From NCBI GenBank assembly GCA_009192285.1, contig WBVU01000011.1, positions 1,732,668-1,796,667 on the forward strand: a stretch of DNA of 64,000 bases. The letters are read 5' to 3'. Shown one piece after another: positions 45,456 through 46,759 of the stretch. Under the pieces are notes generated by a model, which saw only the letters and a list, made by a program, of their open reading frames with translations, searched no databases and was not told the DNA's origin. Both the position numbers and the translations under genes were made by a program. Positions within the stretch are counted from its first letter, which is position 1. Each line of letters opens with the position of its first letter. The DNA is from Morchella semilibera (Eukaryota > Ascomycota > Pezizomycetes > Pezizales > Morchellaceae).

Positions 45456-46759
45456 ATGAGCTCCCCAAAGAGAAGAATAGAAACAGACGTACGTTCCAGG
45501 GACCTTATTTGGGGATCATCTACCCTTGCACCACACTTTATTCTCTGCTAACAGCTTATCTTTTAGGTCATGAGGTACCACAACACGTCCCCGTCCCCTC
45601 TACCACCGCAATTCCGCGACCCTGTGCAACTCGTGTGCCTTTCCCCCAATTTCCGTTAACGTTGCTGACTGACCACGCATACAGGCTGTAAGTTCTTTGA
45701 AGCTTCCGAAACAAGCGAGTGAGGCCCCGATATTGACCTTTTACTAGCTTGATGAGTGACTATGAAGTTACCCTCGTCAATGATAATAGTAAGCCCCCCC
45801 CCCGGGCAACCAAGGGAGCTTTGAAACTCCCTCCGGTATAACGTCACTAATACGCCCCCCTCCCCCCACAGTGTAAACCTAGCCCTCTCAAACTCTTTCT
45901 TTCCCCACAACTTCTCACATGACGCAGGCAGGAATTCTACGTCCGGTTCAAGGCCGAAGAGAGTATTTCGTACCTCCTCTCCCCCCACCCCCCCCCCCAC
46001 CACACCTTGTGCTTTTTCGCGCTTTCCCGGTGGTGCGCATGGCTTAGCCGTCGGGCCGCGCGCACACCCCCGAAACGGAATGGGAGGCGTGGGCATTCTG
46101 GAAACAGATTTGCCGGGCAAATCACGAGTAAAAAAAAAAAAAAAAAATTCAACTAACTTAGTGCACAGCTCCCTTCGCCGGTGGCAACTGGAAGGTGCAT
46201 GTCGAGCTCCCCGACCAGTATCCATACAAGAGTCCCTCGATCGGCTTCGTGAACCGCATCTTCCACCCAAATATTGACGAACTGTGGGTCCCTATCTCTC
46301 TCGCCCGGTCACATACACTCCCGGAATATAGAGGGGAAACAGAGAATTGATGCAGTAATGAGGTTAGAAGCGGAAGTGTCTGTCTTGACGTCATCAACCA
46401 GACATGGTCACCCATGTTTGACATGATCAATATCTTTGAGGTGTTCCTACCGCAGCTCCTGCGCTACCCCAACCCTACAGATCCCCTAAACGGAGAGGCG
46501 GCGGCTCTGTTAATGAGGGAACCGAGGCAATACGACATCAAGGTTAAGGGTAAGTTTGGCTAGAGGAGAGGGGGCTTCTGATCCTATCAATTCTCCAGAA
46601 GCTAATGGGAGGTGGGTGTCAATAGAGTATGTCAATAAATACGCAACTAGAGAAGCTGCCGACGCTGCCACAGACGAGTCCGAAAGCGATGACGACATGT
46701 CGTCTGTTGGATCATTTGATTCCGGGGATGAGGAGCCTGCTGGTACCATGGAGGTCTGA
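45456..46759 (+). CDS. UBC8: Ubiquitin-conjugating enzyme E2, UBC8/UBE2H type, with micro-exons
   Basis: Nine exons: 45456-45488 (33 nt), 45567-45574 (8), 45685-45687 (3), 45748-45788 (41), 45872 (1), 45928-45962 (35), 46169-46283 (115), 46368-46549 (182) and 46626-46759 (134); 183 residues. The E2 accepts ubiquitin from E1 on its active Cys; in yeast Ubc8 serves the GID ligase that degrades gluconeogenic enzymes. Spliced sequence: [47 protein letters not shown], the HPN motif FHPNID, active Cys84 in [15 protein letters not shown], then [13 protein letters not shown] and an acidic tail [11 protein letters not shown]. All introns are GT-AG. The frame and the conserved residues are only obtained with the 8-, 3- and 1-nt exons; the single T makes the ATG codon of VNDNMQEF. 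The 3-nt exon could be skipped in frame; skipping the 1-nt exon would shift the frame. The family assignment is secure. Confidence 0.92.
45567..45574 (+). other. 8-nt micro-exon of UBC8
   Basis: GTCATGAG between acceptor TCTTTTAG (with TGCTAACA branch) and donor GTACCA. Encodes V, M and two bases of R. Confidence 0.8.
45685..45687 (+). other. 3-nt micro-exon of UBC8
   Basis: GCT between GCATACAG (CTGAC branch about 15 nt upstream) and GTAAGT. It completes R and starts L so that MRLLMSD is formed; without it the protein would read MSLMSD. Confidence 0.65.
45872..45872 (+). other. Single-nucleotide exon of UBC8
   Basis: One T between CCCCACAG (CACTAATA branch upstream) and GTAAAC. It supplies the middle base of the Met codon in VNDNMQEF. 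I found no donor/acceptor pair in this interval that restores the frame without it. Confidence 0.65.

Follow-up and report, generated by a model that had tools for sequence, protein, structure and literature searches.

The UBC8/UBE2H gene in the window (the whole stretch of 64,000 nt of DNA that was analysed) is, we conclude with high confidence, built from a run of micro-exons: its first exons measure 33, 8, 3, 41, 1 and 35 nt, the lone T of the 1-nt exon would be the middle base of the Met29 codon, the introns on either side would be spliced sequentially, and the micro-exons would be ancestral to Pezizomycotina.

Gene layout and the splice chain

The coding sequence covers 45456-46759 on the forward strand, with nine exons and eight introns and a product of 183 aa (Table 1); the assembly holding the window comprises 56.8 Mb in 23 contigs. 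The window translation scored 124 bits against PF00179 (UQ_con; cut-off 27), in agreement with UBC8/UBE2H membership, and carries IFHPNID and SVCLDV, presumably the HPN motif and the active-site Cys motif of exon 8, respectively. The best PDB matches of the near-identical contig protein P0002 (see below) were 8pmq (named E2-24 kDa) and 8pjn (named E2 H), which we take to be yeast Ubc8 and human UBE2H. E2 enzymes of the UBC8/UBE2H type work with the GID/CTLH ligase. Among the matches listed, the named proteins closest to the gene product were mostly from Morchella and Tuber, which, as far as a single gene can tell, suggests a Morchella-like host. Neither Rfam (gathering threshold) nor ARAGORN gave a match over the window.

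Table 1. Exons of the UBC8/UBE2H gene and its introns 1 to 6, in window coordinates.
Feature	Position	Strand	Description
Exon 1	45456..45488	+	33 nt, from the chain search
Intron 1	45489..45566	+	78 nt, GTACGT..CTAAC..TTTTAG
Exon 2	45567..45574	+	8-nt micro-exon GTCATGAG; codes for V-M and the start of R (two bases); VMR in P0002
Intron 2	45575..45684	+	110 nt, GTACCA..CTGAC..CATACAG
Exon 3	45685..45687	+	3-nt micro-exon GCT; end of Arg and first two Leu bases
Intron 3	45688..45747	+	60 nt, GTAAGT..TTGAC..ACTAG
Exon 4	45748..45788	+	41 nt, ends in A (first base of the Met29 codon)
Intron 4	45789..45871	+	83 nt, GTAAGC..ACTAAT..CCCCCCACAG
Exon 5	45872..45872	+	lone T, middle base of Met29 (A-T-G)
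Intron 5	45873..45927	+	55 nt, GTAAAC..GACGCAG
Exon 6	45928..45962	+	35 nt; encodes KA, without GP
Intron 6	45963..46168	+	206 nt
Exon 7	46169..46283	+	
Exon 8	46368..46549	+	SGSVCLDV..DIKVK
Exon 9	46626..46759	+	includes the stop codon

The search ran through all possible series of introns (GT-AG or GT/GC-AG, at most 400 nt), with minimum intron lengths of 10, 25, 40 or 50 nt. Only one chain, the exons given above followed by exon 7, rebuilt the UBC8 N-terminus. A first-pass annotation had placed five introns between 45489-45566 and 45873-45927 and had held that no other exon set restores the conserved UBC8/UBE2H N-terminus; each intron was found exactly at these bases, all of them GT...AG, and the exhaustive canonical search agrees in giving a single solution. 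Within 45789-45927 there is one AG-N-GT site only, the T at 45872, flanked by canonical introns of 83 and 55 nt, although the branch-site candidate of intron 5 is weak. AG-NNN-GT occurs twice in 45575-45747 (GCT at 45685 and CGA at 45716), and Arg-Leu is obtained from GCT only. The genome reads AATAGTAAG across the border of exon 4 and intron 4 (45785-45793), and the mRNA joints predicted by the micro-exon chain are ..AATATGCAGG.. and ..ATGAGGCTCTTG...

Chance rates were estimated from dinucleotide-preserving shuffles in which both introns had to measure at least 30 nt, using 20,000 shuffles per interval for T and for [AG]CT. For a T exon the rate was 1.4% and for an [AG]CT exon 1.1%, falling to 0.5% and 0.6%, respectively, with a minimum intron of 50 nt. 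A 1-nt exon of whatever base appeared in 8.3% of 5,000 shuffles (introns of at least 30 nt); at this rate the DNA sequence by itself is suggestive, and outside evidence is needed.

Introns 4 and 5 would each be recognised as a short unit (intron definition) and excised one after the other, since AG-T-GT offers no room for two spliceosomes at the same time; the mRNA would be the same whichever intron leaves first. With 83 and 55 nt, respectively, they are comparable in length to the other short introns of the gene, and pairing of splice sites across short introns is described for Pezizomycotina in the accessible text of one study (PMC5639578). Skipping of the 8-nt exon results in a stop at codon 16 and skipping of the 3-nt exon keeps the frame. 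Skipping of the T shifts the frame and leads to a stop at codon 68, so that its inclusion would be required for the full protein. Met29 is aligned with Met in 8pmq and with Leu in 8pjn. As to origin, a second intron was likely gained one base away from an existing intron. The frameshift upon skipping of the 1-nt exon might also suggest that the 8-3-1 array is kept across Pezizomycotina as a splicing checkpoint, with the amount of UBC8 governed by how efficiently the sequential splicing proceeds, perhaps depending on the carbon source; we hold this to be rather unlikely.

A second possible acceptor of intron 8 (CTCCAG, 46593-46598) was noticed 27 nt upstream of the one used in Table 1. The frame is kept (46599-46625), and nine residues, EANGRWVSI, would be added ahead of EYV, making alternative splicing possible at this intron.

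Contig proteins and gene models of other fungi

P0002 has 184 aa, stems from a contig of 1,689 nt and matches the predicted protein at 99% identity along the full length. It shows Arg-Leu-Leu and Met as the micro-exon chain requires, which, together with the single canonical solution, upholds the earlier proposal of consecutive 8-, 3- and 1-nt exons. Its contig is presumably a spliced transcript, as a contiguous frame set against eight genomic introns indicates a spliced message. NDNMQEF is contiguous in P0002, P0004, P0006, P0008 and P0016, MRLLMSD is present in P0002 and P0016, and R-L-L is found in P0065 as well; P0016 and P0065 begin at MRLLMSD, by comparison the ATG inside the 8-nt exon. 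Judged at the protein level, Met29 needs the T, and the genomic exon ends (AATA-GCAG) are without it. Since Met has one codon (ATG), the message would hold a T between AATA and GCAG. This transcript support is at the protein level and rests on taking the contigs as transcripts. No second UBC8 copy was seen as a source of P0002 among 21 matches in the assembly; those of at least 90% identity were solely exons of the UBC8 gene on the two contigs C9 and C10.

The contig proteins P0016, P0065, P0004, P0006 and P0008 begin at MRLL or MSD. Such late starts may be due to truncated contigs or to retained upstream introns.

The 1-nt joint was followed in a main set of 120 proteins listed of 6,176, namely 42 named Pezizomycotina models, 25 from other named fungi and 51 contig proteins, i.e., listed proteins carrying no species name and read from contigs; two plant-named proteins (P0001, P0020) were excluded from the counts. 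A third set contributed 41 named non-Pezizomycotina fungi out of 80 new proteins, with the plant-named P0265 and unlabelled proteins left out. The query of a second list (120 proteins, 81 new) was itself a garbled model; this list is biased for that reason and did not enter the rates given for the 1-nt joint, which is intact in 4/81 of its new proteins. Met, Ile or Leu were accepted at the joint, as were V-to-I variants (P0068, P0113, P0212, P0221).

The NDN-M-QEF joint is broken in 32 and intact in 10 of the 42 named Pezizomycotina models. It is intact in all other named fungi (25/25 in the main set and 41/41 in the third, hence 66/66) and in 51/51 contig proteins of the main set. Comparing the 42 with the 66 models, Fisher's test gave p = 5.5e-19, species relatedness being ignored. 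When the remainder of the protein was compared with 123 Pezizomycotina and 66 other proteins as reference, 47 of the 51 contig proteins had their nearest match in a Pezizomycotina model, and 47/47 are intact at the joint; 29 of these reach at least 90% identity, and for the remainder, down to 82%, the placing is less sure. From the GP motif on, 100% identity was found between P0002 and P0010 (M. snyderi), P0018 and P0159 (A. tubingensis), and P0021 and P0127 (Lepidopterella), the joint being broken in P0010, P0159 and P0127. These 42 Pezizomycotina models have the correct joint at intron 6 in 40 cases and at introns 7 and 8 in 42 cases each; the corresponding figures for the 41 outgroup models are 37, 39 and 40. 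Outgroup models also contain errors, but the 1-nt joint is spared. At the upstream joint, with the 8- and 3-nt micro-exons, 24/42 Pezizomycotina models are intact, as are 24/25 and 38/41 models of other fungi and 44/45 eligible contig proteins, the T-to-A variant P0073 being wrongly scored as a failure.

The garbled models can in part be read. NDNSKQEF, NDNSEQEF, NDNSMQEF or NDNSTQEF stands in 11/42 listed Pezizomycotina models, as would result if the predictor moves the donor by 4 nt (AATAgtNN / gt..ag / GCAG) and thereby mends a frame one base short; the true donor right after AATA would then be GTAAGT, GTGAGT, GTATGT or GTACGT. The M. importuna and M. snyderi models read NDNSKLP, which corresponds to AATA directly followed by GTAAG. 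NDNM followed by a residue with a T-startable codon (Y, F and others) occurs in 4/42 listed models and in 21/81 of the biased list; here intron 4 would have been joined properly to the T and the next donor GT read through. In-frame retention of the homologous second intron, at 51-75 nt (55 nt in the window), fits 9/81 models of the biased list. Both readings are met within Ophidiomyces ophidiicola (P0142 NDNMYM vs. P0158 NDNSDV) and within Aureobasidium pullulans (P0200 NDNMFV vs. P0147 NDNSTL), so that the T there is seemingly not contiguous with AATA. NDNRQEF (4/42) and five other forms (KFY, KIV, TRC, TVQ, RSE) are unexplained at this joint, MHP (1/42) and MPN, MTD and MTN (3/81) misfit a read-through of T and GT, and two MSV forms are ambiguous. 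The 10/42 intact Pezizomycotina models may reflect intron loss or RNA-guided annotation.

In the region of the 3-nt exon, VMKM followed by Y or C was read in 24/123, ETDDV or ETDAV in 8/123 and one residue too few in 22/123 models (81/123 from the biased list), and M. snyderi P0010 runs through the 3-nt exon into its donor (AVSSLKLP). Two failing outgroup models, Russula brevipes P0207 and Lentinula raphanica P0268, read KLCV and KLYV, respectively, after VMK. An intron placed immediately behind AA-RCT in mushroom-forming fungi would account for this; that is the position of intron 3, so intron 3 may predate intron 2 and the 3-nt exon.

Foreign fungal UBC8 DNA was sought in genome and viral contig collections with one scan each, and no relative was confirmed. 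Read back from predicted proteins, the DNA of other species would bear strong traces of the UBC8 micro-exons, and we infer that the 1-nt and 3-nt exons are probably ancestral to Pezizomycotina. The first-pass annotation had called such a chain exceptional for a fungus; it seems to be no peculiarity of this one species, as many Pezizomycotina genome models break at the same joints.

Assembly questions and alternative explanations

At 45948-45962 the window encodes RFKAEE, one codon short of the RFKGPEE in the near-identical P0002; GP is contained in 281/281 stored homologues and absent at the KA of the window. A further canonical micro-exon was considered here and rejected, as no GT-AG or GC-AG chain yields KGP. 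The difference would be either a real variant, or a different source species, or an assembly error nearby. C9:1774285-1783785 and C10:1774000-1783500, on two contigs of 2.07 Mb, show 100% identity across the 9,501 bases that were compared, so C10 is uninformative as an independent allele or assembly check. On C12 and C13, too, E2 matches came in pairs with the same score. Paired identical contigs may represent near-identical nuclei or a duplicated assembly.

If a base were missing from the assembly at 45788/45789, a single ordinary intron of 139 nt would suffice. The missing codon in the next exon, seen against 281/281 homologues, makes an error nearby possible, and the identical C10 gives no independent check. 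However, the NDNSKLP of M. importuna and M. snyderi and the 4-nt donor shift in 11/42 models point to the same short frame in other assemblies, and since an error of one base is not expected to turn up in so many places, we consider this explanation very improbable. An assembly error had been named at the outset as what would undo the micro-exon reading; other Morchella, Tuber and Terfezia models, going by their predicted proteins, have the same missing base. Alternatively, the 139-nt intron might have a non-canonical end (GT..CA or TA..AG), one splice-site base being kept. While this restores the frame and matches the NDNRQEF of 4/42 models, it predicts Arg, whereas P0002 has Met and 51/51 contig proteins have Met, Ile or Leu at the joint; it is hardly credible. 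The same low standing is given to a stwintron, i.e., one intron nested in the splice site of another with no exon at all. According to the accessible text of PMC5639578, Pezizomycotina do contain stwintrons, which have to be spliced consecutively, but both introns here have a complete GT and AG, and the base is kept in the message to judge from P0002. No internal intron interrupts an external splice motif, and the T is retained in the sole fitting chain.

It could also be that the morel does have the micro-exons and that the garbling in other classes is N-terminal noise of gene finders, with no shared 1-nt exon. Gene predictors share training and cope badly with short exons, which counts for such noise, as do the 10/42 Pezizomycotina models intact at the joint. 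Nevertheless, the failures in the 42 models cluster at the micro-exon joints and hardly touch joints 6-8, many broken models obey the arithmetic of one missing base, and the 1-nt joint is intact in 66/66 named models of other fungi. We therefore regard noise as decidedly unlikely and favour micro-exons shared across Pezizomycotina.

Significance and comparison with known systems

If this wider reading is true, a core gene has retained a 1-nt exon while the Pezizomycotina radiated, laboratory species included, which would explain why 32/42 examined models break at the joint. Sequential one-base splicing could then stay stable over very long times, and the gene would lend itself to studying how AG-N-GT is dealt with by two spliceosomes. 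The signature of one missing base is usable to find further 1-nt exons. A single-base exon is reportedly also present in placozoan cox1. Fungal mitochondrial group II cases of single-base exons appear in the available part of PMC12308204. A report of micro-exons in UBC8 was not found in the open-licence literature, searched only partly by enzyme name.

The first-pass annotation had referred to Arabidopsis APC11 for the existence of single-nucleotide exons. This holds, since a 1-nt exon of that gene is described in the accessible text of PMC4674806, yet the precedents go further: the available sections of PMC8831610 report 1-nt exons of APC11 and VPS55 conserved in land plants, and those of PMC12940212 one in Fusarium CYP621A. 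As far as these sections tell, the plant genes resemble UBC8 in having one base between two introns that is frame-critical and was overlooked by annotation. They differ in being plant genes whose exon has been demonstrated with RT-PCR, RNA-seq or reporter constructs, whereas the evidence for UBC8 is at the protein level, and in UBC8 the 1-nt exon is closely preceded by 8- and 3-nt exons. In fungi, the Trichoderma Xlr2 micro-exon measures 20 nt and serves as an alternatively used switch, as stated in the accessible part of PMC11121469; both are fungal micro-exons, UBC8 being without evidence of a switch. With the stwintrons of Pezizomycotina, as presented in the available text of PMC5639578, UBC8 shares two tightly packed introns removed in sequence. 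In a stwintron, however, the internal intron breaks the splice motif of the external one, while in UBC8 both introns have all their splice sites whole, and a single base is left between them.

Since 1-nt exons are already known from plants and Fusarium CYP621A, UBC8 is a further case, its series of 8-, 3- and 1-nt exons being unusual, and by its traces its 1-nt exon would be more widely spread than that of the fungal case found in print. The authors of the CYP621A study claim, in its accessible sections (PMC12940212), the first 1-nt exon in a fungal gene. Measured against these sections, both are fungal nuclear genes with an AG-N-GT arrangement in which the base takes the middle position of a conserved-motif codon, and the interval is 139 nt both in F. 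graminearum CYP621A and in UBC8 of the window. In CYP621A the base is G, and Fusarium orthologues and SRA reads are presented; in UBC8 it is T, in a core ubiquitin enzyme, apparently Pezizomycotina-wide and seen at the protein level.
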